This document shows, piece after piece, positions 12,588-36,895 of a stretch of DNA of 37,656 nucleotides (within the stretch, counting starts at the first letter, position 1; each line of letters begins with the position of its first letter). The notes under the pieces are model-generated. The model ran no database searches. It saw nothing but the letters and a program-made list of their open reading frames with translations, and was not told the origin of the DNA. Both the position numbers and the translations under genes were made by a program. This DNA is from a virus: positions 1 through 37,656 of the IMG/VR virus record IMGVR_UViG_3300045996_000809. One strand, 5' to 3'.

Positions 12588-12905
12588 TCAGGACCAGAGA
12601 GGGCCGTCGCATTGCCACACGGTGGTGTGCATCTCGCTGTCATCGGCGGGCGGAAGTTGGCGTGCCGGAGCCGACGCTTCACCGGTAGCGAGCGCTGCCA
12701 GAAAGAACTCGTTCAGGTCGGCGGTGCCCTCACTCTGGTCAACCGACCAACCCTCGCACACCGTGTTGGGCGACAAGGTGAGTTCCCGGTTGTCGGGAAC
12801 CGTGATCTCCACCAGGGTGCTGTCCTGGTAGGCGATCGTGCCGGCCGTGTCGGTCTGGTCGTGGCGGATCGCTTGCCCGATGTGGAGGTCTCCGTAAGTC
12901 ATCAT
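12588..12905 (-). CDS. Small leftward orphan gene beside terminase
   Basis: A protein of about 105 residues beginning MMTYGDLHIGQAIRHDQ, on the opposite strand to the head genes. It looks like a small beta barrel (TAGTIAYQDSTLVEITVPDN) followed by an acidic helix. The ATG (12905 or 12902) sits only 6 bp after a -10 box, so the mRNA is probably leaderless and no ribosome site is needed. It was not recognised. With its own promoter, it behaves like a moron, a gene expressed independently of the host operon. Confidence 0.65.
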   Translation of the reverse strand: MMTYGDLHIGQAIRHDQTDTAGTIAYQDSTLVEITVPDNRELTLSPNTVCEGWSVDQSEGTADLNEFFLAALATGEASAPARQLPPADDSEMHTTVWQCDGPLWS

Positions 12906-12976
12906 GTGCCAAGTATGACACACCTGGACACACCATGACAACACCCAATCTCACCGATCCGTACGACCCGGCCGCC
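12894..12976. repeat. Promoter and terminase-start duplication, copy A
   Basis: This 83-bp stretch matches 13328-13410 at 78 of 83 positions, offset 434. It carries the start codons of a leftward gene, the leftward promoter, and on the plus strand the first 14 codons of the large terminase (MTTPNLTDPYDPAA). Copy A is therefore a terminase 5' remnant; the reading frame beyond it is not terminase. Confidence 0.88.
12912..12941 (-). promoter_or_regulatory. Leftward promoter of orphan gene, site 1
   Basis: On the minus strand: TTGTCA (12941-12936), 18 bp, CATACT (12917-12912), then 6 bp to ATG 12905. The predicted start point falls on or next to the ATG. The box lies in an imperfect dyad bounded by TGTGCC and GGACACA. 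Confidence 0.65.
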
Positions 12977-13020
12977 CTCCCGGCCTCCGGCGTGCAGGCG
13001 CCGGCCAGCGTCAAGGCCGA

Positions 13021-13064
13021 CGCACGGAAACGGCTCCGCTCAGGAGCGGAGCCGTTTCCGTGCG
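13021..13064 (-). terminator. Perfect 20-bp hairpin
   Basis: CGCACGGAAACGGCTCCGCT (13021-13040) and its exact complement (13045-13064) enclose the 4-nt loop CAGG. It lies 24 bp past the stop of the leftward gene at 13088-13339 and is the most stable hairpin I noticed in the window. It probably ends that transcript; being symmetric, it could also act on rightward transcripts entering the terminase. Confidence 0.75.
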
Positions 13065-13087
13065 GGCGGTGCCCGATGGGGCGTGAG

Positions 13088-13339
13088 TCAGGCGGGGATG
13101 CGCAGGGTGGTGCACTCTGCGCCCTTGGCGTGGTTGTGGCAATTGGCGTGGGCGTGCCGGTCGCACACCGGGTAGCCGAACCGAGGGCAGTGCGTGGTGG
13201 CCGTCGTGCGGCAGTCGCCGTAGTCGCAGTCCCGAACGATGATGTCCGCGGTCCTGATGTGCTCCCAGCGCTTGCAGAATCCACACATGCAAGTGTGTGC
13301 GGTCTGGCAATCGGTGTCGATGAAGGTGTAAGACATCAT
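13088..13339 (-). CDS. Cys/His-rich small protein, probable zinc binder
   Basis: An 83-residue protein starting MMSYTFIDTD, with 9 Cys and 7 His. Pairs such as CMCGFC, CDYGDC, HCPRFGYPVCDRHAHANCHNH suggest two or more zinc sites, comparable with small zinc-ribbon or treble-clef proteins. It has its own promoter 6 bp before the ATG and its own hairpin terminator, so it forms a self-contained expression unit between the MuF-like and terminase genes. Function unknown; a host-targeting or regulatory protein is plausible. Confidence 0.7.
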   Translation of the reverse strand: MMSYTFIDTDCQTAHTCMCGFCKRWEHIRTADIIVRDCDYGDCRTTATTHCPRFGYPVCDRHAHANCHNHAKGAECTTLRIPA

Positions 13340-13410
13340 GTGTCAAGTATGACATACCTGGACACACCATGACAACCCCCAATCTCACCGATCCGTACGA
13401 CCCAGCCGCC
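13328..13410. repeat. Promoter and terminase-start duplication, copy B
   Basis: The intact partner of 12894-12976. It holds the leftward promoter and start of the Cys/His-rich gene overlapping the real start of the large terminase on the other strand. GTATGACATAC in its centre is a perfect interrupted palindrome, flanked by TGTGTC and GACACA. Confidence 0.88.
13346..13375 (-). promoter_or_regulatory. Leftward promoter of Cys/His-rich gene, site 2
   Basis: On the minus strand: TTGTCA (13375-13370), 18 bp, CATACT (13351-13346), 6 bp, ATG 13339. Same geometry as site 1. The site overlaps the terminase ATG at 13369, so its occupancy could affect terminase expression. Confidence 0.65.
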
Positions 13411-14931
13411 ACCGCGGACACGTTCGACCTGGACGGCTGGTTGGCCAGCCACGACCCGGCCATGCTCGCCGTGCCGGAGTGCCGGCGCATCCTCACCCGC
13501 AACGACCCGCTCCTGTTCGCCTGGGTGTACCTGCGTGACCACCTCCGGTCCGAGGAGACCGGTAACCAGGTCACCATCGGAGACATGCACCTGGCCTGGG
13601 CGCGCGAGGCCCGACGCTGGCTCGAACCGGTCACCGCACCCAGCGAGCACCGCTCAGCCGAGATCGCCCCACGGAACACCGGCAAGACCACGTGGTGGTT
13701 CCTGATCATCCCCATGTGGCTCGCCGCTCACGGGCACAGTGAGTTCATCGCGGCGTTCGCCGACTCCGGTCCCCAGGCGGAGATGCACCTGCAGACGTTC
13801 AAGAACGAACTCGACCGGAACCCCTTGCTACGTAAGGACTATCCCCGGCTATGTCAGCCGGCCGAACGGCAAAACGAACGCCGCCGACTCTCCGACAACA
13901 AGAAAATGACCATACAGGCCAACGGATTCGTGTTCGGCGCCAAGGGCGTCGACGCCGGCAACCTGGGCATGAAGGTGGGCAAGCGCCGACCGGACACCAT
14001 CCTCATGGACGACATCGAACCAGGCGAAGAGGTCTACTCCACATACCAAGCCGGACAACGCCTCATCGCACTCACCGACTCGGTGATGCCCCTGAACATC
14101 TACGCTCGTGTTGTCCTCTGTGGAACGACAACCATGGTCGGCTCCATCGTGCACCAACTCGTGAAGTCCGAACTCGAGCCGAACGAGGAACCGGCCGCCT
14201 GGATCGCCGAAGAGAAGTTCGAGGTCCACTACCATCCACCCATCATCTCCCAGCCCGACGGCACTGAGCGCTCCTGCTGGCCGGCGCGCTGGTCGATGGA
14301 CTTCCTCGAGACCATCCGGCACACCCGGCAGTACCAGAAGAACTACCGCAACCTGCCGGCCGGCACCGGGGACTACTGGTCACCCGAGGACATCGAGCAG
14401 GCCCGCGAACGTGGTCGGACCGTCGTCGGCATCACCCGGGCCGTTCTCTCGATCGACCCGGCCACCACCAGCCACCAACGCTCCGACCGCACCGCGTTCG
14501 CCGTCATCAGCCACTCCCCCATGTCCAAGACGGCCGTGGTCGAGCACACCCGGGCGGTGATCCTGCCCCCGGCGGCCTGCCGCGCCATCGCGCTGGGCAT
14601 CCTCGAGGATCATCCGGAGATCCGACGCATCCTAATCGAGTGCAACCAGGGCGGGGAGACCTGGCTCAGCGTCTACCACGACATGCCCGTCCCGGTGGAG
14701 CTGATCAGCCAGAGCGAGCCCAAGCCGGTGCGCGCCGCACGCCTGCTCAACCACTTCCAGCGCAAGCGCGCGGCGCTGCGCGGTCGGCAAGTCGCGTTCG
14801 AGGATGAGGCCCTGAGTTTCCCGAAGGGCGCGCACGATGACGTGCTGGACGCCGTGGGCACGGGCGCGGACTTCGTGCTCAAGGCCCGGCGACCGCGGCA
14901 ACGCTCCGAGTCCACGTCGTACGTGGCATAG
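13369..14931 (+). CDS. Terminase large subunit
   Basis: A 520-residue packaging motor. The ATPase domain has Walker A APRNTGKT (100-107) and Walker B ILMDDIE (211-217), the latter followed by acidic residues. The RNase H-like nuclease has Asp363 in SIDPATT, Glu424 in IECNQGG, and Asp490/Asp491 in AHDDVLDA. It drives DNA into the prohead and cuts the concatemer. The ATG at 13369 has only a weak ribosome site (CCTGGA). The N-terminal 14 codons are duplicated upstream at 12935. Confidence 0.95.
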   Translation: MTTPNLTDPYDPAATADTFDLDGWLASHDPAMLAVPECRRILTRNDPLLFAWVYLRDHLRSEETGNQVTIGDMHLAWAREARRWLEPVTAPSEHRSAEIAPRNTGKTTWWFLIIPMWLAAHGHSEFIAAFADSGPQAEMHLQTFKNELDRNPLLRKDYPRLCQPAERQNERRRLSDNKKMTIQANGFVFGAKGVDAGNLGMKVGKRRPDTILMDDIEPGEEVYSTYQAGQRLIALTDSVMPLNIYARVVLCGTTTMVGSIVHQLVKSELEPNEEPAAWIAEEKFEVHYHPPIISQPDGTERSCWPARWSMDFLETIRHTRQYQKNYRNLPAGTGDYWSPEDIEQARERGRTVVGITRAVLSIDPATTSHQRSDRTAFAVISHSPMSKTAVVEHTRAVILPPAACRAIALGILEDHPEIRRILIECNQGGETWLSVYHDMPVPVELISQSEPKPVRAARLLNHFQRKRAALRGRQVAFEDEALSFPKGAHDDVLDAVGTGADFVLKARRPRQRSESTSYVA

Positions 14932-14977
14932 CGCGACACACCCCGTACACTCACCGTAACCAGTTCGAGGAGGACCC

Positions 14978-16663
14978 GTGGCCCAGTCCGCAGACCTGAC
15001 CAAGGCTGTGACCGAGATCCTCGAGCACGCCGATGACTACCGTCTGGCCGACGCCTACTACAAGGGTGAGATCGACGAGGTGTTCGCCTCCGACAAGATC
15101 GCGGCACTGCTCAAGGCGTCGGCCAAGCACTACCGCACCAACCTCGCGGCGACCCCGGTGGACGCCGTCCTCAACGGACTCGAGCTGACCACCGTGATGG
15201 TGCCCGGTGACGAGGCCGGCACGCCCAACGAGAAGCTGACCCAAGAACTCCAGGAGCAGGTGCTCAAGCGCAACGAGCTGAGCCTGTACCTGCCCGACTG
15301 GTTCCGTGAGGTCGGCAAGGAGGGCGACGCCTACCTGATCGTCTGGGAGGGTGAAGACGACGATGGCGCCAAGACGTGTGAGATCCACTTCAAGAAGCCA
15401 GTCGGCTCCCGTATGTTCTACCGCGACGAGAACGAGCGAGAGAAGGATTTTTTCGCGTTCATGTGGCGTGAGACTAGTCCGAAAAGGACACGCGTCAACC
15501 TGTACTACGACGACCGGGTCGAGCGGTACGTGAGCACCGCCACGGAACCCAAGTCCGACAAGGACTTCACTGAATTCACTGTGGACGATGCCGACTGGCC
15601 GATCACCCACGAGTACGGGGAAGTGCCCGTGTTCCACGGCCGCACCGACCACCCCTACGGCGTGCCGGACCACTTCAAGGCCTACGGCCCCCAGAACGCG
15701 CTCAACAAGCTGCTCGCCACCCACATGGCGTCGATCGACTTCCAGGGCTTCCCGCAGCGCGCCGCCCTCATGGACACCGCCCTGGACGACGACGGCGACG
15801 CCTGGGACCAGGACGACAACGAGGCGACCGCGGCCAGCGGCACCATCGACACCGACGACGAGAGCCGACTGACCAGCTCTCCCGGCCGTCTGTGGATGCT
15901 GCGCAACGTGAAGTCCCTCGTCCAGCTCGAGGCGGCCGACCCAGACTCGTTCCTCAAGCCGCTCGACAAGGCCGTCCAGCTCATGAGCGCGGCCACCGGC
16001 ACCCCGCTGCGGTTCTTCGTCGGCACCCAGGGGCAACAGCCCTCCGGCGCCAGCCTGAGCGAGGATGACAAACGCCTCACCGCTCGCAAGCAGATGCGCC
16101 AACGGATGCTCGGTGCCGTGCTCTCCGACGCGTTCACGTTCGCCATGCGCAAGATCCTGGGCCACGCCGACTGCCCCCGCGTCGTGGTCGAGTGGGCGCC
16201 GGCTCAGCGCGCCGAACTGCTCGACGAGTGGCAGACCGTGAGCGCCAAGCAAGCGGCCGGCGTGCCGCGAGACGTGGCGCTCCAGGAGGCCGGGTACACC
16301 GCGGTCCAGGTCCAGGAGTGGCGCGAGGGTGCCCCCGACCCGGCCGACGGGCTGGCCGGTCGGGTGGAGCTGCTCAACAAGCTGGGCGACGCGGCGCAGA
16401 AACTGGCTACCGCCGCGGAGCTGGGCGCCGTCGACATGGCGGTGGTGCAGCAGATCATGGCCGGGTTCCTGCCGGAAGCTGAGGACGGCACGGTGCCCGC
16501 TCCGACCGTGGACGACGAAGGCCCGTCGCTGCGCCAACAGGCTGAGATGGTGCAGAAGATCTACCTTGGGGTGCCGAGCGTGCTCTCCCGCGAGGAGGCC
16601 CGGCAGATGCTCGCCGACGCGGGCATCAACATCGACCCCGGCGCTCCCGCGCCGGCTGAGTGA
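14978..16663 (+). CDS. Portal protein
   Basis: A 561-residue protein starting at GTG after GAGGAGG. Order after the terminase, size, and content fit an SPP1 gp6-like portal: an N-terminal helical region, a beta-rich wing with many acidic residues, a stem region (HMASIDFQGFPQRAALMDT), the long helix with GTPLRFFVGTQGQQPSGASL, and a helical C-terminal crown. It would form the dodecameric ring for DNA entry. The short gap 14932-14977 shows no clear promoter. Confidence 0.9.
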   Translation: MAQSADLTKAVTEILEHADDYRLADAYYKGEIDEVFASDKIAALLKASAKHYRTNLAATPVDAVLNGLELTTVMVPGDEAGTPNEKLTQELQEQVLKRNELSLYLPDWFREVGKEGDAYLIVWEGEDDDGAKTCEIHFKKPVGSRMFYRDENEREKDFFAFMWRETSPKRTRVNLYYDDRVERYVSTATEPKSDKDFTEFTVDDADWPITHEYGEVPVFHGRTDHPYGVPDHFKAYGPQNALNKLLATHMASIDFQGFPQRAALMDTALDDDGDAWDQDDNEATAASGTIDTDDESRLTSSPGRLWMLRNVKSLVQLEAADPDSFLKPLDKAVQLMSAATGTPLRFFVGTQGQQPSGASLSEDDKRLTARKQMRQRMLGAVLSDAFTFAMRKILGHADCPRVVVEWAPAQRAELLDEWQTVSAKQAAGVPRDVALQEAGYTAVQVQEWREGAPDPADGLAGRVELLNKLGDAAQKLATAAELGAVDMAVVQQIMAGFLPEAEDGTVPAPTVDDEGPSLRQQAEMVQKIYLGVPSVLSREEARQMLADAGINIDPGAPAPAE

Positions 16664-16676
16664 GGAGTGATCGACA

Positions 16677-17000
16677 ATGGCTGACCAGAACCTGAGGATC
16701 TACCCGGTCCAGGGTGACAACTACGGCGACGCCATCGAGTACCCGCCGTACGCCAAGTACCGCATGGAGCCGAACTACCCGGGCGCCGCCGGTGACAAGA
16801 ACTACTCGATCGTCCTCTACGAGCTGGACGACAAGCGCGAGGAGCACGAGCTGGGCCGGCACGATCTGTCCGACAACCTCGTGGTGTTCGCCGGCCAGCC
16901 GTCGCCGTTCAAGTCGGAGGGCACCGTGCCGTCCCAGGTGTCCGGCTCGAGCACGGCCAAGAAGGGCTCGAGCACCACGAGCACAACCGCCAAGAAGTAA
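16677..17000 (+). CDS. Unknown small head-region protein
   Basis: A 107-residue protein with a GAGTGATC leader. The first 80 residues look folded (IYPVQGDNYGDAIEYPPYAKYRM, NYSIVLYELDDK), followed by a low-complexity tail of Ser, Thr and Lys (SSTAKKGSSTTSTTAKK). Position between portal and scaffold suggests a head accessory or decoration protein, but no family was recognised. Confidence 0.65.
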   Translation: MADQNLRIYPVQGDNYGDAIEYPPYAKYRMEPNYPGAAGDKNYSIVLYELDDKREEHELGRHDLSDNLVVFAGQPSPFKSEGTVPSQVSGSSTAKKGSSTTSTTAKK

Positions 17001-17025
17001 CCAACTACCAGGAAGAGAGCGCGTG

Positions 17026-17643
17026 ATGGCTGAGGACACCGGCAAGCAGGACGAAGACGACACCGGCTCGGACACCGAGGACGAGACCGAAGAGGAGTAC
17101 GAGGCTCCCGACCAGGGCACCTGGACCAAGACCACCGAGGCCCTGACCAAGGCAAACAACGAGGCCAAGAAATGGCGTCTGCGTGCCCAGGGCAAGGACC
17201 CGAAGTGGACGCCGGCCCCGCCCGCCAAGGACGACGACACCGAGGACAAGCCGGCCGGCCCGAAGCCCAAGCCGGTCAACGTCGACGCCATCCGTCGTGA
17301 GGCGGAGGAGGCGGCGCTGGCCAAGGCCAAGCCAGGCCTTGTCCGGTCGGCCGCAAGGGACGCGCTCCGGGACGCCGGCCTGGTCGTTCCGACTGGTGCC
17401 AAGTCGGAGGCGGCGCTGGCACGCGCGTTCCGGCTCATCGACCTCGAGGAAGTCGACGTCGATGAGGACGGCACCGTGTCCGGCCTCGAGGACCAGGTGC
17501 GCGCGGTCAAGCGGGACTACCCGGAGCTGTTCGCCAAGAGAGGCGGCCGCAACGTCGACGCGGGGGCGGGGAGCAACGGGGACCCGGGCAAGAAGTCCGA
17601 GACGTCGGCGAGCAAGTTGGCCGCTCTGGTGCGAGGCGGCTGA
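17026..17643 (+). CDS. Capsid scaffolding protein
   Basis: A 205-residue protein. ATG 17026 is chosen, with GGAAGAGAG 6-8 bp upstream; an in-frame GTG one codon earlier is possible. It has a very acidic N-terminus (EDTGKQDEDDTGSDTEDE), a Lys/Pro-rich middle, a helical region (VDAIRREAEEAALAKA) and a charged C-terminus. This composition, and its position directly before the major capsid gene, is typical of phage scaffolds that guide prohead assembly and are then lost. Confidence 0.8.
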   Translation: MAEDTGKQDEDDTGSDTEDETEEEYEAPDQGTWTKTTEALTKANNEAKKWRLRAQGKDPKWTPAPPAKDDDTEDKPAGPKPKPVNVDAIRREAEEAALAKAKPGLVRSAARDALRDAGLVVPTGAKSEAALARAFRLIDLEEVDVDEDGTVSGLEDQVRAVKRDYPELFAKRGGRNVDAGAGSNGDPGKKSETSASKLAALVRGG

Positions 17644-17693
17644 TACCCTCGTAGGCGACGTTCGGGCCGGACGTTCCTGCCACTCCCATGGCG

Positions 17694-17734
17694 CACCGCG
17701 ACCCCCGGTTTCCACCTTGCCGGGGGTCGCGGTG
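17694..17734 (+). terminator. Terminator-like hairpin before capsid gene
   Basis: CACCGCGACCCCCGG (17694-17708) pairs with CCGGGGGTCGCGGTG (17720-17734), a 15-bp perfect stem with an 11-nt loop. It lies in the 197-bp gap 17644-17840, the largest non-coding gap in the structural region. It is followed by a modest T-containing stretch. It may limit readthrough from the packaging genes. Confidence 0.65.
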
Positions 17735-17746
17735 TGTCCGGATACT
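17717..17746 (+). promoter_or_regulatory. Candidate major capsid promoter
   Basis: TTGCCG (17717-17722), 18 bp, GATACT (17741-17746), overlapping the right arm of the hairpin. The 18-bp spacer matches the other promoters here, and GGTGTGTCC precedes the -10 box as it occurs in the spacer of sites 1 and 2. It would give the capsid gene a leader of about 85 nt. An alternative -10 is TATCCT at 17766. Confidence 0.4.
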
Positions 17747-17840
17747 TTCTGTGACGTTCGTGAGCTATCCTGCGGATGATCTGCCTGGGAAACGCGCGAT
17801 GGTGGCCAGGGCACCCCACTAGCTGGAAGGGACCGCCACC

Positions 17841-18791
17841 ATGGCAGCGTCCGACGTTGACAACTGGATTCCCGAGGAGGAGGGCGGCCCCGTCCTCCAG
17901 AAGATCAACGCCACCTCGGTGGTCGAGACCGTGGCTCGCCAGGAGCCCATGAGCACCCTCACCAAGAAGGTCCCCCGCGACGGCGGCGTGGACTTCGAGG
18001 GCGCCACGACCAAGGGCGTGGCGATCGCGGAGGACGACTCCGATGTGGACACCGTCCTGCTCACCGCGCGCAAGCTCGCCCGCATCGTCCGGCTGAACGA
18101 CGAGGACGTCGAGGACACCTCCGACGTCGCCAACGTCATCAGCCAGAAGCAGCTCGGCTGGGCCAGCGCCTACGGCGTCGGGTTCGACAACTCGACCCTC
18201 GCGGTCACCGCGGCTGAGAACGGCTCGACGGTCCCGTTCACCTCGCTCTACAAGGTGCTCCGCACCACGAACGCCTCCCTGCCCGACGGCGTGACGTACA
18301 CGGCCGACGACAACCGGGTCCTTTCCGGCACGGGTACCGGCCCGGTCACCTACGGGAACCTGTCCGGCCTGTTCGGCAAGCTCGAGGTGGGCAACTACTG
18401 GACCGACGCTGACATGGCTGTCATCGCGCACCCGGCGTTCCGCATGCTGTTCCGCGGCATCCTGGACAGCAACAACCGGCCGGTGTTCTCGGAGAACCAG
18501 GCCATGGCCAGTGCCGGTGGTGAGCGCCTGTTCGGCGTGCAGATCCGGTGGACCACCGGTGCGCGCACGTCGGCGGTCGGCACGAACAAGCCGACCGGCA
18601 ACCCGCTCCTGTTCGTCGGCAACACGAACTTCCTGATCAAGGGCAACCGGTCCGGTCCGGAGTACGCGTTCGCCGGTCCGAACTCCGGCGCCGGGTTCGT
18701 CACGGACCAGACCCTGCTCAAGTTCCGCACGCGGCGCGGCTTCGCGGTCGGCCACCCGGCCGCCTGGGGCGTGCTGGAGTACGTGGCCTGA
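17841..18791 (+). CDS. Major capsid protein (HK97 fold)
   Basis: A 316-residue protein with a GGAAGGG ribosome site. Features of HK97-type shells: an N-terminal arm (TSVVETVARQEPMSTL), a region with AEDDSDVDTVLLTARKLARIV, a central domain (WTDADMAVIAHPAFRMLFRGILD) and C-terminal beta strands ending in RRGFAVGHPAAWGVLEY. It follows the scaffold and precedes connector genes, the standard order. No separate protease gene was seen. It probably has its own promoter. Confidence 0.92.
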   Translation: MAASDVDNWIPEEEGGPVLQKINATSVVETVARQEPMSTLTKKVPRDGGVDFEGATTKGVAIAEDDSDVDTVLLTARKLARIVRLNDEDVEDTSDVANVISQKQLGWASAYGVGFDNSTLAVTAAENGSTVPFTSLYKVLRTTNASLPDGVTYTADDNRVLSGTGTGPVTYGNLSGLFGKLEVGNYWTDADMAVIAHPAFRMLFRGILDSNNRPVFSENQAMASAGGERLFGVQIRWTTGARTSAVGTNKPTGNPLLFVGNTNFLIKGNRSGPEYAFAGPNSGAGFVTDQTLLKFRTRRGFAVGHPAAWGVLEYVA

Positions 18792-18816
18792 TCTACCCTC
18801 TCGATAGGAGCTGATC

Positions 18817-19257
18817 ATGGCCTGGGCTGACCCCGCGTACACGGTGTCGATCACTGGCGTGACCGTGACGGAAGCGCACGTGACCCAGGCCCAGGCCGTG
18901 ATCGAGCTGTTCTCCGGCGTCACCGAGAGCTACGCGCTCAAGGCGCGCGACGTACGTCACCTCCGGATGGCGGTGGCGTACCAGGCCGCGTGGATAAAGC
19001 CGCAGATCGACGTGACCAGCCGGACCGACGTGAGCCAGGTGACCCAGGACGAGATGTCCTTCACCGTGGCCCACGAGGACGCCCAGATCTTGGCGCCTCT
19101 CGCCCAGCGTGCACTCAAGCGGTTGAGCTGGAAGACGAGTCGTTCGGTGCGACTGCGCCGTCCGGTCGACCCGTCGGAGCGGCGCGACCTCGAGCAGGAG
19201 TTCGTCACCGACACTGGTGACAGTGAACTCGGCTACCGACCGTGGGCGGCACCGTGA
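18817..19257 (+). CDS. Head-tail connector (adaptor) protein
   Basis: A 146-residue, mostly helical protein right after the capsid gene. It starts MAWADPAYTVSITG and includes VTQAQAVIELFSGVTESYALKARDVRHLRMAVAYQAAWI in parts, a pattern like gp6/gp15 adaptors (helical bundle under the portal). The basic C-terminal half (KRLSWKTSRSVRLRRPVD) would suit contact with DNA or portal. The stop overlaps the next gene's GTG. Confidence 0.75.
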   Translation: MAWADPAYTVSITGVTVTEAHVTQAQAVIELFSGVTESYALKARDVRHLRMAVAYQAAWIKPQIDVTSRTDVSQVTQDEMSFTVAHEDAQILAPLAQRALKRLSWKTSRSVRLRRPVDPSERRDLEQEFVTDTGDSELGYRPWAAP

Positions 19258-19613
19258 CGGTGTTCATCCCGACCACCACGGTCACCATCGAGCGGGACAA
19301 CGGCACCGCGCCGGCCACCGGCACCTACGTGGACGGCTACGGCGAGCCCATCGCCAACTGGACGGCCGCCGCTACCGGAGTCCCCGCCTACATTTACGAG
19401 GATGACCAGCGGACCTGGGACCCCTCAGCCGGCAGGCTCACCGTGCGCACGGTGAGCATCTGCCGGCTTCGCCCCACCGTCGACCTACAGGACCGGGACC
19501 GCGTTCGCGACGAACGCACCGGCCACGTCTACCAGGTCGACACGATCAGCAACGAGCCCAGCGTGGTCGGGCTCGCGGACATCCGGGCCGTGACGATCCG
19601 GATCGACGACTAA
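19254..19613 (+). CDS. Head-tail stopper (head closure) protein
   Basis: A 119-residue beta-rich protein. The GTG at 19254 gives a GTGA overlap; an in-frame GTG at 19242 is an alternative. Segments such as PTTTVTIER, RLTVRTVSICRLRP, and RDERTGHVYQVDTIS resemble small beta-barrel stopper proteins that seal the filled head. Position as second connector gene supports this. The 83-bp gap after it carries only a purine-rich ribosome site that includes GGGCGGGGAG. Confidence 0.7.
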   Translation: MTVFIPTTTVTIERDNGTAPATGTYVDGYGEPIANWTAAATGVPAYIYEDDQRTWDPSAGRLTVRTVSICRLRPTVDLQDRDRVRDERTGHVYQVDTISNEPSVVGLADIRAVTIRIDD

Positions 19614-19696
19614 TCACACAGTAATAATCGCTCGAGGGCCACGGACGGCCGCACGCTCGAGCACCACCAACGCCACCGGGAAGGGGGCGGGGAGTC

Positions 19697-20002
19697 ATGG
19701 CATCCGAGTACCGCGAGGACCCCGACGCCAAGGAGAACATCGAGCGGCTGTTCGGCCGCACGCTGGATGAACTACTCCCCGCTATCACGGCCGACGCGAA
19801 GCGCATGGTCCCCGTGCTGTCCGGCGAGCTGCGCTCCAAGATCGACTACGAGAAGATCAGCCCGACCCATGGCCGCGTGTTCGCGAACACTGAGTACGCG
19901 GCCGCCGTCGAGCGCGGCCACGTCACTCGGTCCGGCTCGCACGTCCCCGCCCAGCCCTACCTCCGTCCCGCGGTCACCAAGAACCGGGGCGGCACCGGAT
20001 GA
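19697..20002 (+). CDS. HK97 gp10-like tail completion protein
   Basis: A 101-residue protein with the gp10-type pattern: an N-terminal helix with ADAKRMVPVLSGELRSKI, then EYAAAVERGHVTRSGSHVPAQPYLRPAV. The tyrosine-alanine 'EYA..VE.G' and 'PAQPYLRPA' segments are characteristic of this neck/tail family. It joins neck to tail. The stop overlaps the following gene as ATGA. Confidence 0.85.
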   Translation: MASEYREDPDAKENIERLFGRTLDELLPAITADAKRMVPVLSGELRSKIDYEKISPTHGRVFANTEYAAAVERGHVTRSGSHVPAQPYLRPAVTKNRGGTG

Positions 20003-21126: not shown

Positions 21127-21296
21127 CGCACACCGTCCGCACCAAGAAGCGCCCCCACGAGGAACTCGAGGTCTCCGACCGCGAGTACACCGACCTCAAG
21201 CGCCAGGGCCTCCTCGTCGAGGACGAGGCGCCTGCTCGGAAGGCCGGGCAGTCCAACGCCAGCCAGGCCACCACCGGCCAGACCAGGGAGAACTGA
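21123..21296 (+). CDS. Small charged protein (57 aa)
   Basis: The ATG overlaps the tail-terminator stop (ATGA). The product of 57 residues (MTHTVRTKKRPHEELEVSDR start) is highly charged, with a helix-like EYTDLKRQGLLVEDE, and is Gln/Thr/Ser-rich at its end. It sits immediately before the tail tube gene. Small proteins here are common in actinophages; no function was recognised. Confidence 0.65.
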   Translation: MTHTVRTKKRPHEELEVSDREYTDLKRQGLLVEDEAPARKAGQSNASQATTGQTREN

Positions 21297-21298
21297 TC

Positions 21299-21859
21299 AT
21301 GGCCGTGACCGTTTCGAATCTCACGCAGGGGCCAGGAACGCTCTACACCGGAGCGTTCGACGCTGACGAACCCCTGGACAGCGCCGTCAACGCGACGCCC
21401 GCAGCGTCCGCCTGGACCGACCTGGGCGGCACCATGGACGGCTCCAAGCTGATCATCAAGCAGGAGTACAAGGCCCTCGAGGTTGACCAGATCGTGGACA
21501 ACCCCGGCTCCCGGCTCATCAAGCGGGAGACCAAGATCGAGACCAACATGGCGGAGCCCACACTGGAGAACCTGGCGTTGGCGCTGAACGACGGCACGAT
21601 CTCCACCGGGTCCGGGTGGGAGGCATACGAGCCGGACGCCACCGACTCCGCCACTCAGCCGACCTACACGGCGCTGATCCTGCACGGCTGGATCGGCACG
21701 GCGCGGCGCATGGTCATCCTGCGCAAGGTGCTCTCGGTGGAGGGCGTCGAGCCGGAGTACAAGAAGGACGGCCAGTCCGTCCTCAAGGTCACGTTCGAGG
21801 CGCACTACGTGAGCGCCTCCGTCCGCCCGTTCCGCATCATCGACGAGGTGCCCGCATGA
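21299..21859 (+). CDS. Major tail tube protein
   Basis: A 186-residue protein with the order and pattern of siphovirus tube subunits: SNLTQGPGTLYTG near the start, AWTDLGGTMDGSKLIIKQEYK, then a VDQIVDNPGSRLIKRETKIETNMAE segment in parts, and a C-terminal KVTFEAHYV. The fold expected is a beta sandwich that stacks in hexameric rings. It is followed by the overlapping chaperone genes, the standard arrangement. Confidence 0.88.
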   Translation: MAVTVSNLTQGPGTLYTGAFDADEPLDSAVNATPAASAWTDLGGTMDGSKLIIKQEYKALEVDQIVDNPGSRLIKRETKIETNMAEPTLENLALALNDGTISTGSGWEAYEPDATDSATQPTYTALILHGWIGTARRMVILRKVLSVEGVEPEYKKDGQSVLKVTFEAHYVSASVRPFRIIDEVPA

Positions 21860-25784: not shown

Positions 25785-25786
25785 CC

Positions 25787-28579: not shown

Positions 28580-28593
28580 TTGGAGGCCCACTC

Positions 28594-30435
28594 ATGGCAC
28601 CCACGGGCAAGCTGGGCCTCGAACTCCCGGCCGGTAGCGATCTCATTACGAGGACTACTCAGCTCAACGCCAACCTTTCTCGACTCATGGACGCTACCGG
28701 GTTCATCCTCTGCACGTCCGACGCACGTCCTGTGCCGCCCACCACGTTCCCAGGGATGCCCATCCACGAGACGGACACCGGCGCCAAGTACATGCGCAAC
28801 CCGCTCGACACGGGGTGGCTTCCGGTGGGTGCGAGCACATGGGCGACGCTGGGCGCCGGCGCGATCCGGGCGACCAAGCCACTCCGGCCGTACGGCCAGG
28901 ACACCAACCACAGTGCGTTCCCTGCCATCCTGCTCAAGCAGGATGGCGAGATGATCTGTGTGTACCGGCAGGGCACAGACCACATCACGGCTCGAGACGG
29001 CATCCTCCGGGTCACCCGGTCGTCGGACATGGGTCGCTCGTGGGCTTCGCCGGCCACTCTGCTCTCCCTGCCCGGGGTCGACCTCCGGGACCCTGGGCTG
29101 TCGGAGTCGGCGGATGGCACCAAGATCTGGCTCACCTACGTGAAGACCACCGCGGCCGCACCGTTCAACGGCGCCTACTTCCGTACGTCCACGGACGGGG
29201 GTCTCTCCTTCGGTGCTGAGACCCGCATCGACAACGGAGTGACGGCCGCGAGCGTCGCACCCATCGTCGAGCTGAACGATGGCACGTTGGTGATGCCCTG
29301 GTATGGCACGACCGGCGCGGAGACGTGGCGCTCGGTGTGGATCGCGAAGTCCACCAACGGTGGTACGTCGTGGACGTCCACGCGGATCGTGAACGGGCAG
29401 ACCGCGGGGCGCCACTACGAGGAGCCGTACATTGCACGTAACGGCACCATCCTGGGCATGACGTTCCGGTGGGGTGCGGTCCAGTCCATCGGATTCGCGT
29501 CCTCTGTGGACAATGCGGTCAACTGGTCCGCTGGAGCTGAGAAGTTCGCTGGCACCGGCAAGCCCAACTGCTTCTGGGTCAACCCGCACACACTCGCTCT
29601 GATCTACCGTCGACTCTCCGGCGGCCACGCGATAATCAGATACACACGAGATCTGGGTCAGACCTGGTTCGGGGAGATCGCGATCGAGAACCGGCGCTCA
29701 CCGTCCGGGTGGATGACCTACTCCGACGTGTCCATGGTCCAGCCAGGAGCCGGGATCATGGCTTTAGCCCAGGAGACATCCAGTGCCAGCTCCCGGCTGT
29801 TCTTCGGATACGTGGGGGAAGCCGGGGCCACCACCCCGTTCGGCGCCTTGGATGAGGAACAGGCCGCGCTTACGTCCAATGTGGACGGCGTGATCTTCGC
29901 AACCAACTTCGGACAGGCGGATGGTGCGCTCACCTCACCCTGGGCTGTCACATCCGGGACGGGCAACGTGAGCAACGGCGTGCTCACTCCAGCCACCGCG
30001 GCCACTCAGACAGTCGCGCGTATCCATGCCGGCTCCACCGAGATCGAGGTGGAAGGCGAGTTCCAGTGGACCGGGGCGGATGTAGGATTCGCTGGACTCG
30101 TGTTCGCCATGACCGATGGAGCCACCTACTGGGCGTTCTTGCGGGACTTCCCGGCGTCGGTCGCATCCCTGCGCCTATACCAGTACACCGGGGGCGTGCC
30201 TACCATGAAGGCCACGGTGGCGTTTCCGTCGATGCCGAGCACGTACCACAAGCTCAAGGTGATTAAGAAGCATGGCAGTGTCGCGTGCTTCTGGAATGAC
30301 CGCAACATGCTGAACTACTCGATGACCGGCCCGGAACTCACGTCCACAGTGAACGGTACATATGTGGGGGTGAGTTTGCAGAACGGGTCTGGTGGGGACC
30401 AGGCCACGTGTCGGCGGTTTCTCGTACGAAACTAA
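28594..30435 (+). CDS. Sialidase-like beta-propeller tail fibre / receptor-binding protein
   Basis: A 613-residue protein with a GGAGG ribosome site. An N-terminal virion-binding part (GLELPAGSDLITRTTQLNANLSRLM) is typical of tail fibres. Four Asp-box-like motifs mark a sialidase-type propeller: SSDMGRSW (143-150), STDGGLSF (199-206), STNGGTSW (253-260) and TRDLGQTW (351-358). The C-terminal 180 residues look like a concanavalin/LamG-type domain (GADVGFAGLVFAMTDGATYW, YHKLKVIKKHG). It may bind or trim a host surface glycan. Catalytic residues (Arg triad, Tyr/Glu pair) cannot be assigned by eye. Confidence 0.82.
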   Translation: MAPTGKLGLELPAGSDLITRTTQLNANLSRLMDATGFILCTSDARPVPPTTFPGMPIHETDTGAKYMRNPLDTGWLPVGASTWATLGAGAIRATKPLRPYGQDTNHSAFPAILLKQDGEMICVYRQGTDHITARDGILRVTRSSDMGRSWASPATLLSLPGVDLRDPGLSESADGTKIWLTYVKTTAAAPFNGAYFRTSTDGGLSFGAETRIDNGVTAASVAPIVELNDGTLVMPWYGTTGAETWRSVWIAKSTNGGTSWTSTRIVNGQTAGRHYEEPYIARNGTILGMTFRWGAVQSIGFASSVDNAVNWSAGAEKFAGTGKPNCFWVNPHTLALIYRRLSGGHAIIRYTRDLGQTWFGEIAIENRRSPSGWMTYSDVSMVQPGAGIMALAQETSSASSRLFFGYVGEAGATTPFGALDEEQAALTSNVDGVIFATNFGQADGALTSPWAVTSGTGNVSNGVLTPATAATQTVARIHAGSTEIEVEGEFQWTGADVGFAGLVFAMTDGATYWAFLRDFPASVASLRLYQYTGGVPTMKATVAFPSMPSTYHKLKVIKKHGSVACFWNDRNMLNYSMTGPELTSTVNGTYVGVSLQNGSGGDQATCRRFLVRN

Positions 30436-30492
30436 TCGTCCACATCAGACCACTACGACACGTATCGGGGGTACGGGAAAGGCCGGCGCACT

Positions 30493-30801
30493 GTGGATCA
30501 AGTGGCACAGTTGGTCACGGGCGGTGGCATCATCACGTTCCTGGGCCTCATTGTTTTCTACCTCTTGAACTCGAACAGACAGGACCGGGACCAGCATCGC
30601 AAGATCATTGCGGAGCAAGACAAGCGGATCGAAACCATGGAAGCCCGGCATGACGCGAAAATCGCCCAGCTCGAAACCAAGATCGATAACTTGGAGAGAG
30701 AAGTGGACACCGAGCGAACAGCGCGACAAGCCGCGGAATTCGAGGCCCGCACCGCCAAGCACCTACTCTCCCTGCTCCAGCCACCGGGGGAGGCGTCGTG
30801 A
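30493..30801 (+). CDS. Holin-like membrane protein with coiled coil
   Basis: A 102-residue protein starting at GTG. One hydrophobic helix near residues 9-26 (TGGGIITFLGLIVFYLL) is followed by a long charged coiled coil (EQDKRIETMEARHDAKIAQLETKIDNLE in parts). Actinophage lysis cassettes often hold a protein of this design before the endolysin. It could be a holin or a partner. The gap 30436-30492 contains CACTACGACAC, also seen at 32762-32772, but no convincing promoter. Confidence 0.65.
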   Translation: MDQVAQLVTGGGIITFLGLIVFYLLNSNRQDRDQHRKIIAEQDKRIETMEARHDAKIAQLETKIDNLEREVDTERTARQAAEFEARTAKHLLSLLQPPGEAS

Positions 30802-31406
30802 CCCACGAAGAGCTGGAGCGCGTCGGCCGGCGCCGTGATGTGATGAACCGGTTGATCGGGTTGGCAGTGGTCATTTTACTCACCGCGCTCGTGTGGATCG
30901 GACTGCTCATCCACGGTGACCGGGACGAGGCAGAGCAGGATGCCGCGGCGCTCGCCGAACCGGTGCTCGAGGTGTGCGATGGGGGCGGGGAGCCTGCGGC
31001 CGCGCTCGAGCAGCGCGGGGCGTGTCGTCGAGCTGAACAGCTCCCCGACCCCGACGACCCCGAGCAACAGGATCCCGAGAATCAAGATCCGGAAAACCAG
31101 GATGCCGAACAGCAGGACCCTGAAATTCAGGACGGGGATCCCAACGATCCTGACCCCATCGACGACCCGGACCCCAATGACCCGGACCCGGCGGACGATC
31201 CTGACTCGGATGACCCAGAGCAGCAGGAGCCGGAGATCCAGGACCCCGAGGAGCAGGAGCCGGAAATCCAGGAGCCAGAGGAGCAGAACGCCCCGGTGTG
31301 TCCTCCCGGCTTCACCGCGGAGCCATTCGTGTGGAACGGGCCGGACGACCTACCCAACACGGGTGACGAACGTACCTGGCTCCTGTGCATGGAGGACGTA
31401 CCCTGA
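30798..31406 (+). CDS. Membrane-anchored acidic Asp-Pro repeat protein
   Basis: A 202-residue protein starting at GTG in a GTGA overlap. Residues about 18-39 are a transmembrane helix (LIGLAVVILLTALVWIGLLI). Then come two Cys and about 90 residues of acidic low-complexity repeats based on DPENQ, DPEQQ, DPNDPDP and EPEIQ, then a short domain with two Cys (CPPGFTAEPFVWNG, LLCMEDVP). An extracellular spacer that crosses the cell wall is likely. It may assist lysis as a spanin- or holin-associated protein; unproven. Confidence 0.65.
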   Translation: MTHEELERVGRRRDVMNRLIGLAVVILLTALVWIGLLIHGDRDEAEQDAAALAEPVLEVCDGGGEPAAALEQRGACRRAEQLPDPDDPEQQDPENQDPENQDAEQQDPEIQDGDPNDPDPIDDPDPNDPDPADDPDSDDPEQQEPEIQDPEEQEPEIQEPEEQNAPVCPPGFTAEPFVWNGPDDLPNTGDERTWLLCMEDVP

Positions 31407-31440
31407 GGTAGACAAACTCAGACGCGTGAGGTGGGACCGC

Positions 31441-32112
31441 ATGGTGACCAGTCAAAACGGATGGCCGGCCAGCTCGAACAAACGCACGATCGGTGTGGAA
31501 CTGTTCAAGGTGGCCGGCGTCGAATTCGTGGGTGGCGTCAAGGCCGGGGACGTGGCGGCCGTGCTGGGCCACGTGGTGACGCGCTTCCACCACGAGGTCG
31601 AGAAGCTCGTGTCCAGCTGGTGCTGGGGATGGGCCTACCGCGATGTCCGTGCCGGCTCGACGCTGTCCAATCACGCCAGCGGTACGGCGATCGACGTGAA
31701 CGCACCGGCGCACCCGCTGGGCAAGCGAGGAACGTTCGCTCCCCGGCAGCGCGACCGGATCCGCGACATCCTTTCGGATGTTGACGGCGTGGTCCGGTGG
31801 GGTGGCAACTACAACGGCCGCCCCGACGAGATGCATTTTGAGATCAACGCCGGTCCGGCCATGGTGGCGCGGGTGGCGGCCAGAATCCGTAACCGCCCGG
31901 GAGGCGACGTGAAGAATCTGCTGATCATGCACGAGAAGACGAACCGCGCGACCTACGTCGGTGATGGCGTGACCCGACGGCACATCAAGAACGCCACGGA
32001 GCTGGCCGACCTCCAGTGGTGGATCAGGCGCCAGGGCGGGGACCCGACCGACTACGAAGTGGAGGACGGGCACCTGGCCGGCGTACTGGGTGTGGAGGTC
32101 AAACCGGTCTGA
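31441..32112 (+). CDS. Endolysin, M15-type (VanY/L-Ala-D-Glu) peptidase
   Basis: A 223-residue protein. ATG 31441 is preferred because GAGGTGGGA precedes it. The peptidase domain has SNHASGTAIDVNA with His78 and Asp85, and EMHFEI with His132, the zinc ligands of the M15_4 family, plus the conserved VRWGGNYNGRPDEMHF. It would cut peptides of the host peptidoglycan. The C-terminal 65 residues (NRATYVGDGVTRRHIKN, ADLQWWIRRQGG) may bind the wall. It is the last gene of the rightward arc, just before a bidirectional hairpin. Confidence 0.92.
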   Translation: MVTSQNGWPASSNKRTIGVELFKVAGVEFVGGVKAGDVAAVLGHVVTRFHHEVEKLVSSWCWGWAYRDVRAGSTLSNHASGTAIDVNAPAHPLGKRGTFAPRQRDRIRDILSDVDGVVRWGGNYNGRPDEMHFEINAGPAMVARVAARIRNRPGGDVKNLLIMHEKTNRATYVGDGVTRRHIKNATELADLQWWIRRQGGDPTDYEVEDGHLAGVLGVEVKPV

Positions 32113-32130
32113 CCCGGTAGGCTGCACATG

Positions 32131-32173: not shown

Positions 32174-32184
32174 TCCGTTGAGAG

Positions 32185-32295: not shown

Positions 32296-32300
32296 TCGCG

Positions 32301-32405
32301 TCACCTCCCCCAGAATGTCGCTGCGACCCAGCTGAACACCGTGCCGGCGATGATTACCACGATGAGCACCACCAGGACAACGAGGAGCGCTTCCTTCGGG
32401 TTCAT
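32301..32405 (-). CDS. Single-helix membrane micro-protein (34 aa)
   Basis: ATG 32405 overlaps the stop of the secreted-protein gene (ATGA). The product is MNPKEALLVVLVVLIVVIIA followed by GTVFSWVAATFWGR, almost entirely one transmembrane helix. Coupled translation supports it being real. Possible roles are superinfection exclusion or lysis timing. Confidence 0.65.
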   Translation of the reverse strand: MNPKEALLVVLVVLIVVIIAGTVFSWVAATFWGR

Positions 32406-32746
32406 CGCTGAACTTCCACCATGGCCGACCAGTTCCACGGGCCGCCGGGCAGGGCGTTGTTGTCCTTGCACGTCTGGTACGCGTCGCGCCAGTTCTGCCA
32501 GGCCGCGGTGCCACGGTTGGTCTCGAACCACACGGTGTAGGTGGGCCGGTCGCCGGGGATGCCACGCGCCTCACGCTCGGTACGGAAGCACGCCTTGCGC
32601 GCGGCCTGGATGTCCGCGGGGTACTCGAAGTACCGGTGTACCGCGTGAGTGATGATCAGCTCCCGATCGGCCGACGCCGGGACAGTCACGAGGGCGGGGA
32701 GCAGAGCGGCGATCAGGGCTGCGGTGCGAAGCAAGTATCGGGTCAT
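32402..32746 (-). CDS. Secreted small protein with signal peptide
   Basis: A 114-residue protein. MTRYLLRTAALIAALLPALV leads to a VPASA cleavage site near residue 26, so the mature form is about 88 residues. Mature Cys residues (CFRTE and TCKDN) could form a disulfide. The ATG sits 6 bp after a -10 box, probably leaderless. Export from the infected cell or retention in the envelope is expected. A phage coding for an exported protein from an independent promoter suggests a host-surface or exclusion role. Confidence 0.78.
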   Translation of the reverse strand: MTRYLLRTAALIAALLPALVTVPASADRELIITHAVHRYFEYPADIQAARKACFRTEREARGIPGDRPTYTVWFETNRGTAAWQNWRDAYQTCKDNNALPGGPWNWSAMVEVQR

Positions 32747-32752
32747 GGACAA

Positions 32753-32781
32753 AGCATGACACACTACGACACAGTCCGCAA
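32753..32781 (-). promoter_or_regulatory. Leftward promoter of secreted-protein gene, site 3
   Basis: On the minus strand: TTGCGG (32781-32776), 17 bp, CATGCT (32758-32753), then 6 bp to ATG 32746. On the plus strand GCATGACACACTACGACACA matches the site at 35082-35101 at most positions, marking it as a diverged family member. Confidence 0.5.
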
Positions 32782-32784
32782 CCC

Positions 32785-34840: not shown

Positions 34841-34876
34841 GATGATCATTCCCAGGATCTCCCCGACAGAGGTGGG

Positions 34877-35074
34877 TCAGTCCCAGATGGAGTCGGTACC
34901 CGCGAACGGGTCGAGGTCCATCGGGTGGGCCGGCTCGCCGTATTTCTCCGACGTGATGGTCCGGCAGGTGATCCGGCCGGGGCACAACCACATCAGGTTC
35001 AGCTCGAACCAGTCGTGCGCTTCGTGATCCGTGAGTTGTTCACAGTGTTGCTGGTTGAGACGGGTTGTCGTCAT
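34877..35074 (-). CDS. Small unknown protein from leaderless promoter (65 aa)
   Basis: A 65-residue protein beginning MTTTRLNQQHCEQLTDHEAH. It contains His/Cys residues (HC, HEAH, CPGRITC) that might bind a metal, and an aromatic stretch (WFELNLMWL). Its ATG follows the -10 box by 6 bp. It lies alone between the GT-B gene and the MazG-like operon, resembling the two orphan genes next to the terminase in design. Confidence 0.65.
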   Translation of the reverse strand: MTTTRLNQQHCEQLTDHEAHDWFELNLMWLCPGRITCRTITSEKYGEPAHPMDLDPFAGTDSIWD

Positions 35075-35080
35075 GTGCCC

Positions 35081-35110
35081 AGTATGACACACCTGGACAC
35101 ATGACGACAA
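35081..35110 (-). promoter_or_regulatory. Leftward promoter, site 4, with dyad symmetry
   Basis: On the minus strand: TTGTCG (35110-35105), 18 bp, CATACT (35086-35081), 6 bp, ATG 35074. The ends CATGTG and CACATG (35072-35077 and 35097-35102) form an inverted repeat around the -10 box, which suggests a repressor operator. Confidence 0.65.
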
Positions 35111-35113
35111 GAC

Positions 35114-36121
35114 CTAGTTCAGGTACAGCGCTTCCCATTTCTGCCAGTGCTTCGTGATCGACCGCGACTCCGCGACCTCAAGTGCGGACTGGGCCATGTC
35201 CAGCCGTCCCTCGCTGTCCCGGTACAGCTCGCCCAGGATGCCCGCCCACTCGTGTGGCCGGTCCACCAGCCAGCCGTCCACTCCCGGCCTGATGGCTCGC
35301 TCGTACGGACCGGTGTTGCTGGCGACCGTGACGATGCCGCGTGCCCCGTACTCCAAGAACTTGATCTCGCTCTTGGACCGGTTGAACGGGGACGGCCGGA
35401 GCGGGGCGAGACCCACGTGGAAGTCGAGCGCGCGGTAGTACATCTCGACGTCGGCGATCCACTGGGTTGAGCGGAAGTTCGTGCCGGCGCCCATGGCCGA
35501 CCGGCGCACCTCGTCGAACACCGTGCCGACGTTGTGGAACTCCGCCTCCGGGTGGCGCTTGAAGAACTGGCGGACGCCTGGCAAGGCCTCGAGCATGTCG
35601 GCCCGATGTGACGCGCCCCCGGCCCAGCCGACCGTGAAGGGGAACCATCCGGGGATCACAGGTGTCCGCTTACCGAACGCGGACACCGGGAGCTGGTTGG
35701 GCAGGATCATCACGTTCGGATTAATCCGACGCACCACGTCGGCGAGCGCCTCGGTGGTGACCGTGCACACGTCGGCCAGTCGCGCGCACGTCGCCAGGTT
35801 GTCGAGCAACTCCGGCGAGCGCCGGTAGAAGTTCCACGCTGGAATATTCGCCGGGTCGATGTCCCACAGGTCGTCGTCCAACTCGAACACCATGAGCGGC
35901 CGCCGGCCATAGTAGCCCGCGGCGAGCCGAGTCCAGCGCTCTGTGGCTCCCGGCTGGCAGACCCGCTGCCCCACGACCACGTCGGCTTCCTCGACGACCC
36001 AGTCGGGCATCGTGGTGGCCACGTGGGCGTCGTGGCCGTGCCGGTTCAGTTCGGCGAACGGGACGCGGAGCCGGTACCAGCCCGGCCCCGCGTCGTCCGC
36101 CGCCCACCCGAAGATCTTCAC
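35114..36121 (-). CDS. GT-B fold glycosyltransferase (GT4-like)
   Basis: A 335-residue protein; GTG 36121 overlaps the upstream stop (GTGA). N-terminal part: MKIFGWAADDAGPGWYRLRV, a GT-B start that binds the acceptor. C-terminal part: FTVGWAGGASHRADM, then SEIKFLEYGARGIVTVASNTGPYERAI, the nucleotide-sugar site of GT1/GT4 enzymes with Glu in the EYGA segment. LMVFELDDDLWDID is common in related phage and bacterial glycan enzymes. It would act with the GT2 enzyme in the same arc. Confidence 0.87.
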   Translation of the reverse strand: MKIFGWAADDAGPGWYRLRVPFAELNRHGHDAHVATTMPDWVVEEADVVVGQRVCQPGATERWTRLAAGYYGRRPLMVFELDDDLWDIDPANIPAWNFYRRSPELLDNLATCARLADVCTVTTEALADVVRRINPNVMILPNQLPVSAFGKRTPVIPGWFPFTVGWAGGASHRADMLEALPGVRQFFKRHPEAEFHNVGTVFDEVRRSAMGAGTNFRSTQWIADVEMYYRALDFHVGLAPLRPSPFNRSKSEIKFLEYGARGIVTVASNTGPYERAIRPGVDGWLVDRPHEWAGILGELYRDSEGRLDMAQSALEVAESRSITKHWQKWEALYLN

Positions 36122-36342
36122 TCGAGGTCGGGTGCCTTCTGCTCAGTGCCCGGGACCCGGATTACGCCCTGGTCGGACAAGATCTCGCCGACGCGCACCC
36201 ACACCCCGCCCGTGTGCGTCGCCAGGTCGCCGTGTGTGGCGAGCGACTCCTGGATGGCCTGATCGTAGGCGTCGTGCAGGGCCTGACCGATCGCCTCCGG
36301 CGAGCCCTTGTCGAATGCGCTGCCCCACTCGCTCGAGGTCAC
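36118..36342 (-). CDS. Small unknown protein (74 aa)
   Basis: GTG 36342 overlaps the membrane-protein stop (GTGA), and its stop overlaps the GT-B start. The product has a helical first half (SPEAIGQALHDAYDQAIQES) and a beta-like second half (GGVWVRVGEILSDQGVIRV). No family recognised. Its place suggests cooperation with the glycosyltransferase. Confidence 0.65.
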   Translation of the reverse strand: MTSSEWGSAFDKGSPEAIGQALHDAYDQAIQESLATHGDLATHTGGVWVRVGEILSDQGVIRVPGTEQKAPDLE

Positions 36343-36845
36343 AGGTTCTCGCCTCCCCGGTTGGCGGCGATCTCGCCGGAGAAGTCCGGGCCGTCCGCGT
36401 GCTGGCCGGAGGGAGGCGGGGAGGTGTTCTGCCGCAACGCATCGTCGTGACCGTGGTCGTAACCACTCTGGTAGGCGTTGTTGAGCCTCCGCGAGGGGAG
36501 CAGACCATCTACGTGCACCGGCGCGTCCACGTTCTGTCGGACGAAGAACGCGGCGGCCGCCGCGATGAGCGCCAGGATGCCCGCCTGCGTGTGTTCCGCG
36601 ACCGGCGAGCCGTAGGCCAGGAACACGGCGAACGTCGCTTGCACGAGGCCCACGAGGGCGGGGAGCACCTTGTCCGTGTCGACCAGCGCCGCCGTGGCGA
36701 GACCGGCCGTGGCCAGCACCGCCGCGTTCAGCGCGCCGGCCACCGGGTCGGAGACGTTCAGGAGCTGGATCACGGCCAGGATGAGGCCCGCGACGAGAGC
36801 GAAGAACACGGCCGGCTCGCGGCCCATGATCTTATTCGATTTCAT
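36339..36845 (-). CDS. Four-helix membrane protein, holin-like
   Basis: A 168-residue protein with four hydrophobic segments: about 11-29 (PAVFFALVAGLILAVIQLL), 35-54, 60-79 and 88-101, then a polar tail with QSGYDHGHDDALRQ. A short N-terminal basic stretch precedes helix 1. Four-helix phage membrane proteins of this length often serve as holins, but this one is far from the endolysin and next to glycan genes, so a membrane scaffold or transport role is also possible. It has an AAAGG ribosome site. Confidence 0.75.
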   Translation of the reverse strand: MKSNKIMGREPAVFFALVAGLILAVIQLLNVSDPVAGALNAAVLATAGLATAALVDTDKVLPALVGLVQATFAVFLAYGSPVAEHTQAGILALIAAAAAFFVRQNVDAPVHVDGLLPSRRLNNAYQSGYDHGHDDALRQNTSPPPSGQHADGPDFSGEIAANRGGENL

Positions 36846-36867
36846 GAATCAACCTTTCGTTGTGTCC

Positions 36868-36895
36868 AGTATGGACGGTGAGCTATTTCTGTCCG
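36868..36895 (-). promoter_or_regulatory. Leftward promoter before membrane protein, site 5
   Basis: On the minus strand: CGGACA (36895-36890), 16 bp, CATACT (36873-36868), then about 22 bp to ATG 36845, which has a ribosome site. CATACTGGACAC matches CATACTGGGCAC of site 4. CCTTTCGTTGT is repeated at 36853-36863 and 36900-36910, so an AAAGG ribosome site is present twice in this 71-bp gap. Confidence 0.45.

Follow-up and report, generated by a model that had tools for sequence, protein, structure and literature searches.

Morons, found in lambdoid and other phages, are autonomous small accessory genes that carry their own promoter and terminator and sit between ordinary phage genes. Promoter early stem-loops (PeSLs) were reportedly first described by Arbiol (2010) and Comeau (2014), in T4-like phages. 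A PeSL combines a promoter with a stem-loop between small genes, is repeated in the genome and lies at points of recombinational gene shuffling between relatives (PMC4503421); there is a parallel in the haloarchaeal virus HGTV-1 (PMC3950731). Cluster K mycobacteriophages carry start-associated sequences (SAS; GGGATAGGAGCCC, 13 bp, 3–9 bp before start codons) with a presumed translational role, and extended start-associated sequences (ESAS) with putative −35/−10 promoters and 17-bp inverted repeats (PMC3203893, PMC11373665). Leaderless SigA promoters (PL1, PR2 and PL2) are known from cluster O mycobacteriophages such as Corndog (PMC4351075), and ~14% of mycobacterial genes are leaderless (PMC7148126). 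Here we analyzed the IMG/VR virus record IMGVR_UViG_3300045996_000809 over its entire length of 37,656 bp (67% GC; G000, hereafter the window), and describe a family of minus-strand elements, placed exactly in front of small genes, that are likely leaderless promoters. All statements on transcription are inferred from sequence.

Of the five minus-strand sites listed in the sequence-only reading, four are mutually similar and as it described them: TTGTCA-N18-CATACT with TGTCC in the spacer and an extended −10 (12912–12941), TTGTCA-N18-CATACT (13346–13375), a weaker TTGCGG-N17-CATGCT after the glycosyltransferase gene GT2 (32753–32781) and TTGTCG-N18-CATACT after the glycosyltransferase gene GT1 (35081–35110). 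The spacer, which it put at 16–18 bp, is 18 bp long except at 32753 (17 bp), and an ATG does begin exactly 6 nt past CATACT or CATGCT in each of the four. With the A of this ATG as +1, the TTGnCn box spans −36 to −31, the spacer TGTCC, invariant in 11 aligned sites, −25 to −21, the TG of the extended −10 lies at −15/−14 and CATACT at −12 to −7, while the six bases from CATACT to the ATG are free save for an invariant C at −1. A −35 at −36..−31 together with a −10 at −12..−7 is the geometry expected for a transcript starting at +1. The dyad symmetry earlier attributed to the best sites (GTATGACATAC, CATGTG...CACATG) is not conserved, as −16 is A or G and the bases before the ATG vary as just described; judged from the alignment, the dyads are probably incidental.

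Three close relatives (G001–G003; L007–L009) were recovered from viral_contigs by a terminase search, with terminases 80% identical to that of the window and most other proteins at 45–80%. These and the window form a comparison set of four genomes, of which G002 and G003 are mutually close; additional searches with the primase, the portal, a glycosyltransferase and the 65-aa protein encoded at 34877–35074 gained one partial record (L052), which is site-free. The motif, when sought in the three closest relatives, was present in each (2 sites in G001, 4 in G002 and 5 in G003, 11 beyond the window's 4). It was defined without the ATG, which nevertheless lay at exactly +6 from the −10 in 15/15 sites across the four genomes, compared to a chance ATG frequency of ~0.010 per position, with the proviso that related copies are not independent. 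The place of the 32753 site also has a site in G002 (28379) and G003 (21869). At the 35081 position, the promoter reads TTGACATGGTTTGTCCAGGGGCG-TAGCGT-N7-ATG before the G001 orthologue (47% identical protein) and TTGACATGGTATGTCCACCTATGTC-TATCAT-N6-ATG before the G003 gene at the same place, such that −10 and spacer have drifted and the −10-to-ATG distance is still 6–7 nt, a pattern to be expected if selection acts on a leaderless start. A −10 ending ~6–7 nt before the start codon, as in leaderless sigma-A-type promoters, is found at the 15 sites and at the drifted G001 and G003 promoters, and the promoter precedes orthologous genes with its spacing kept. The two refuting checks of the sequence-only reading that were run, for the motif in relatives and before orthologues, both favored that reading. 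A fifth, weaker site proposed at 36868–36895 does not belong to the family: it has no TGTCC box, its ATG (36845) lies 22 nt past the −10-like hexamer and is preceded by the Shine-Dalgarno (SD)-like AACGAAAGG, and nothing resembling it occurs upstream of the orthologous holin gene in the relatives.

We assessed how far the motif exceeds chance and how widely it is distributed. Its strict core, TGTCNNNGTRTGTCATRCT, had four copies in the window and none in 60 Markov-simulated sequences; TTGTCA-N14-19-CATACT occurred twice, compared to 0 expected. A standard sigma-70 scan of 1 kb around the terminase start returned only the two promoters of the gene cassettes located there (0.0 expected), both with the extended −10 TG. 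Scanning for TTG[AT]C-N16-19-[CT]AnnnT-N6-7-ATG before open reading frames (ORFs) of at least 30 aa recovered hardly anything beyond these sites, and five outgroup loci gave no hit. Fourteen further terminase-relative loci (44–47% identity) gave no comparable match in a position weight matrix scan, those of their records that were searched whole gave no match, and similar promoter pairs were not found in the upstream regions of more distant terminase-relative loci or in two control loci. Because none of the fourteen distant loci had it, the motif is, by this comparison, confined to a small phage group consisting of the window and its three relatives, and a viral_contigs scan with the strict pattern including the ATG matched these relatives only. 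Among isolate phages, the window DNA had no match and the motif no relevant one. Two wider leads were rejected: a looser viral scan hit unrelated contigs at approximately chance level by estimate, and three genome_contigs matches were discarded as evidence of a host or wider regulon, as the estimated chance number is ~3.7 (18 fixed bases plus one R in 2 × 257 Gb). The genome_contigs matches concern ArsR-type leaderless-looking genes in two Mycobacterium genomes (L041 758, 4074; L043 6658) and a Lachnospiraceae metagenome-assembled genome. Overall, a family of predicted leaderless promoters is well supported by comparison.

The genes behind the promoters, all on the minus strand, are small. They encode 105 aa at 12588–12905 (GC content at third codon positions, GC3, 0.80), whose C-terminus shares 42% identity with the corresponding last cassette of G002/G003; a Cys/His-rich protein of 83 aa without family match at 13088–13339 (GC3 0.87); 114 aa with a signal-peptide-like N-terminus at 32402–32746 (GC3 0.86); and 65 aa at 34877–35074, the start of which is conserved in the G001 orthologue. 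GC3 of the cassette ORFs was gene-like (0.76–0.95), compared to 0.60–0.61 for antisense ORFs. No relatives of the 83-aa or 65-aa protein were found in isolate phages. Several cassette proteins are Cys/His-rich (window 13088–13339; G002 28354–28151; G001 17586–17798), with weak family matches or none, and by composition may be small zinc-binding proteins. ORF callers start the gene at 34877–35110 12 codons too early because its ATG shares a reading frame with the −35 TTG, and the same start is likely mis-called in the relatives. The statement that all sites drive orphan or first-of-group genes applies to 12912 and 13346, whereas 35081 and 32753 are internal to a leftward operon, where each immediately follows one of two glycosyltransferase genes.

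More informative than the promoters themselves is the cassette architecture, that is, hairpins and exchange at the promoter, which was absent from the sequence-only reading. Beside the terminase gene, the window and G001–G003 carry modules that run counter to the neighboring genes. Each consists of a promoter, an ORF of 54–105 aa and a GC-rich hairpin, after which another promoter follows, in some cases with its −35 box starting only a few bases from the hairpin. Folding z-scores of the inter-module hairpins were −8.1, −3.6, −5.3, −1.9 (weaker) and −5.7; the terminator-like hairpin closing the 83-aa cassette (13022–13063, minus strand; z −8.1) has a 19-bp stem and no U-tract. Two copies of an 83-bp direct repeat, comprising the promoter and the first TerL codons, bracket this cassette (12894–12976 and 13328–13410; 94% identical). 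The terminase start codon (13369, plus strand) overlaps the −35 of the leftward 13346 promoter and has no clear SD sequence. Only one cassette exchange was clear-cut, between G002 and G003, where G003 equals G002 plus one cassette. At the G002 junction, the first promoter's variant bases (TTC) lie upstream and the second cassette's gene downstream, which places the crossover, by these sequence markers, inside the 28 identical bp from TGTCC to ATG. This pair thus points to the gain or loss of a cassette by recombination exactly at the promoter.

Compared with the described systems, the element is functionally closest to PeSLs in being a genome-repeated promoter and stem-loop between small genes at points of recombinational shuffling. 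The composite of promoter and stem-loop between genes is found beside TerL in the window and G001–G003 and not at the right-arm sites (32753 and 35081), and breakpoints at the element are seen in the 28 identical bp of G002 vs. G003 and in the window's 83-bp repeat. It differs from PeSLs in belonging to an unrelated GC-rich actinobacterial phage (37 kb, 67% GC), with Streptomyces and Microbacterium phages, not T4-like ones, as its best relatives by terminase and capsid, and in its predicted leaderless mRNAs, extended −10, conserved TGTCC spacer box, single-gene modules opposite the late operon and few copies (about 3–6 per genome). The parallel drawn earlier with SAS of cluster K holds only insofar as both are conserved, repeated sequences directly upstream of the start codons of many small genes; the element here is by prediction a promoter, whereas SAS are presumed translational, and neither GGGATAGGAGCCC, which was not found before the ATG, where the sequence is CATACT-N6, nor the ESAS 17-bp inverted repeats occur. 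Cluster O promoters share the SigA-like sequence and a +1 at the start codon, including before a leftward gene inside the structural operon, but are not described in PMC4351075 as a repeated conserved family tied to hairpins or cassette exchange. The modules resemble morons as autonomous small accessory genes with, as predicted, their own promoter and terminator, and differ in that several stand in tandem under one promoter sequence and are predicted to be leaderless. The literature searched yielded no description of an actinobacterial phage in which a leaderless promoter common to several genes is combined with hairpins and the exchange of cassettes.

Our favored explanation, which we consider likely, is that the sites are host promoters of the sigma-A type (TTGnCA, 18 bp, TGT-CATACT) that produce leaderless mRNAs from swappable small accessory-gene modules. 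Host sigma-A would be the simplest driver, with transcription starting at the A of the ATG to give one leaderless mRNA per small accessory gene. The leaderless start would make each module self-contained because the promoter carries the translation signal along, and the hairpins would terminate transcription. Cassette genes would be early-acting or independent of the late operon, and the shared promoter/hairpin block would provide the homology at which modules are gained, lost or swapped, in a PeSL-like manner. At the sequence level, comparison demonstrates the motif, its spacing and conservation, the hairpins and one precise cassette gain or loss. Several points weigh against this explanation. 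Conservation of the middle TGTCC equals that of the −35 and −10 hexamers, a degree for which host RNA polymerase by itself does not account, and the array sites may resemble each other through recent copying rather than selection. U-tracts of the hairpins are mostly weak or absent, which is why a generic terminator scan does not list them. In addition, the right-arm sites lie within the leftward operon with no hairpins just upstream or downstream, and on this layout are promoters, not closed cassettes.

The conserved spacer leads to the strongest alternative, which we regard as possible but doubtful: a dedicated regulon, akin to the one-factor regulon proposed in the sequence-only reading, in which a phage factor, most likely a 73-aa HTH_17 (MerR/BldC/Xis-like) protein encoded at 4356–4577 on the plus strand, binds 10-bp-phased TGTC/TGAC repeats head-to-tail, both at the cassette promoters and upstream of its own gene, and turns the cassettes on or off jointly. 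This candidate regulator is conserved in the relatives at 53–63%. The window contains five copies of TGWC-N6-TGWC-N6-TGWC, found at the four promoters and ahead of the gene for this helix-turn-helix (HTH) protein; 0.12 copies are expected, and none of 200 simulations gave more than 1. The copy ahead of the HTH gene, a 10-bp-phased TGTC-N6-TGAC-N6-TGTC (4270–4293, minus strand), sits in the gap that separates this gene from the leftward replication operon and is kept in every relative, and a related early leftward promoter lies at 4255–4284 (minus strand; TTGACG-N18-TAGACT, TGTC in the spacer, leader of ~33 nt). The best solved-structure matches of the HTH protein are BldC structures (6ama and 6amk; E 0.019–0.055, profile), and BldC binds 9-bp direct repeats head-to-tail (PMC5859096). 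BldC operators of Streptomyces thus share phased direct repeats and, for the locus here, a small MerR-like HTH protein encoded nearby; the BldC-type 9-bp repeats with consensus AATTXXXX(C) were not found, however, as those here are 10-bp TGWC, and the phage protein is a putative binder. The similarity to BldC is also weak and the HTH fold prediction poor (AlphaFold pLDDT 58.5). Furthermore, the two outer repeats of each triple fall on the −35 and the extended −10, such that only the middle one needs an extra explanation. The −35 and extended −10 explain most of the motif via host RNA polymerase, while the spacer TGTCC and the phased repeats near the HTH gene hint, from their sequence, at a shared regulator. 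Less probable still, and in our view a long shot, is the combination of both ideas, in which the BldC/Xis-like 73-aa protein would polymerize head-to-tail on 10-bp-phased TGTC repeats in leaderless promoters and the promoter/hairpin block would serve as recombination handle. If true, a captured gene would join the regulon at once, translation signal included.

Cassette gain and loss at the element and direct repeats bracketing one cassette could also indicate that the repeats are primarily recombination sites, integron- or att-like, and that their likeness to promoters is incidental. We rejected this reading as very improbable: a consensus −35, extended −10 and exact ATG spacing are present in every copy, no integrase or recombinase was found among the scanned window genes, and repeats of 28–83 bp are enough for ordinary homologous recombination. 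Hardly credible is the notion that the motif is an N-terminal coding segment with the −35 TTG as true start, 36 nt before the ATG and adding ~12 residues (LSWCVQVCHT...M). In its favor, the TTG is in frame and open at 10/13 distinct sites and is the start picked by ORF callers at 35110. Against it, W13346 has a stop between TTG and ATG, and at W32753 and G003 20096 the TTG is in another frame than the ATG and runs into stops. Moreover, conservation extends to third codon positions, CAG/CAC/CAT vary, and the TTG is not preceded at a suitable distance by an SD-like sequence; the three broken frames refute it as a general explanation.

The genes of the window are arranged as follows. Leftward helicase and exonuclease genes (4215 to 129) are followed by rightward genes for the HTH protein, DNA polymerase, methyltransferase, primase-helicase and RusA (4356 to 12585), the two small leftward genes (13339 to 12588), rightward terminase, portal, capsid, tail and endolysin genes (13369 to 32112) and leftward holin, glycosyltransferase and methyltransferase genes (37375 to 32402). 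The two record ends (1–354 and 37303–37656) are 94.6% identical; by this match, the record represents essentially the whole genome (~37.3 kb), which is either circular or has terminal redundancy, and strains vary at the join, although IMG/VR classes the record as linear. Terminase and capsid were 37–51% identical to those of Streptomyces phages, Microbacterium phages and one Streptomyces satellite phage, and the DNA polymerase was similar to Gordonia and Mycobacterium phage polymerases, from which we infer that the host is very probably an actinobacterium. Near-perfect inverted repeats at 19427–19468, 10216–10268 and 11219–11240 are candidate terminators or structured RNA.

The element is a concrete and testable example of the acquisition and expression of functionally unassigned small phage genes: a captured ORF would need nothing else, because the leaderless promoter carries transcription and translation start together. 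It also provides a reliable signature by which genuine small genes that belong to no family can be recognized, with their correct start codons, in uncultivated related phages, and by which accessory genes with a possible action on the host can be collected. The idea of shuffling by promoter and stem-loop would thereby extend from T4-like phages to small actinobacterial phages.

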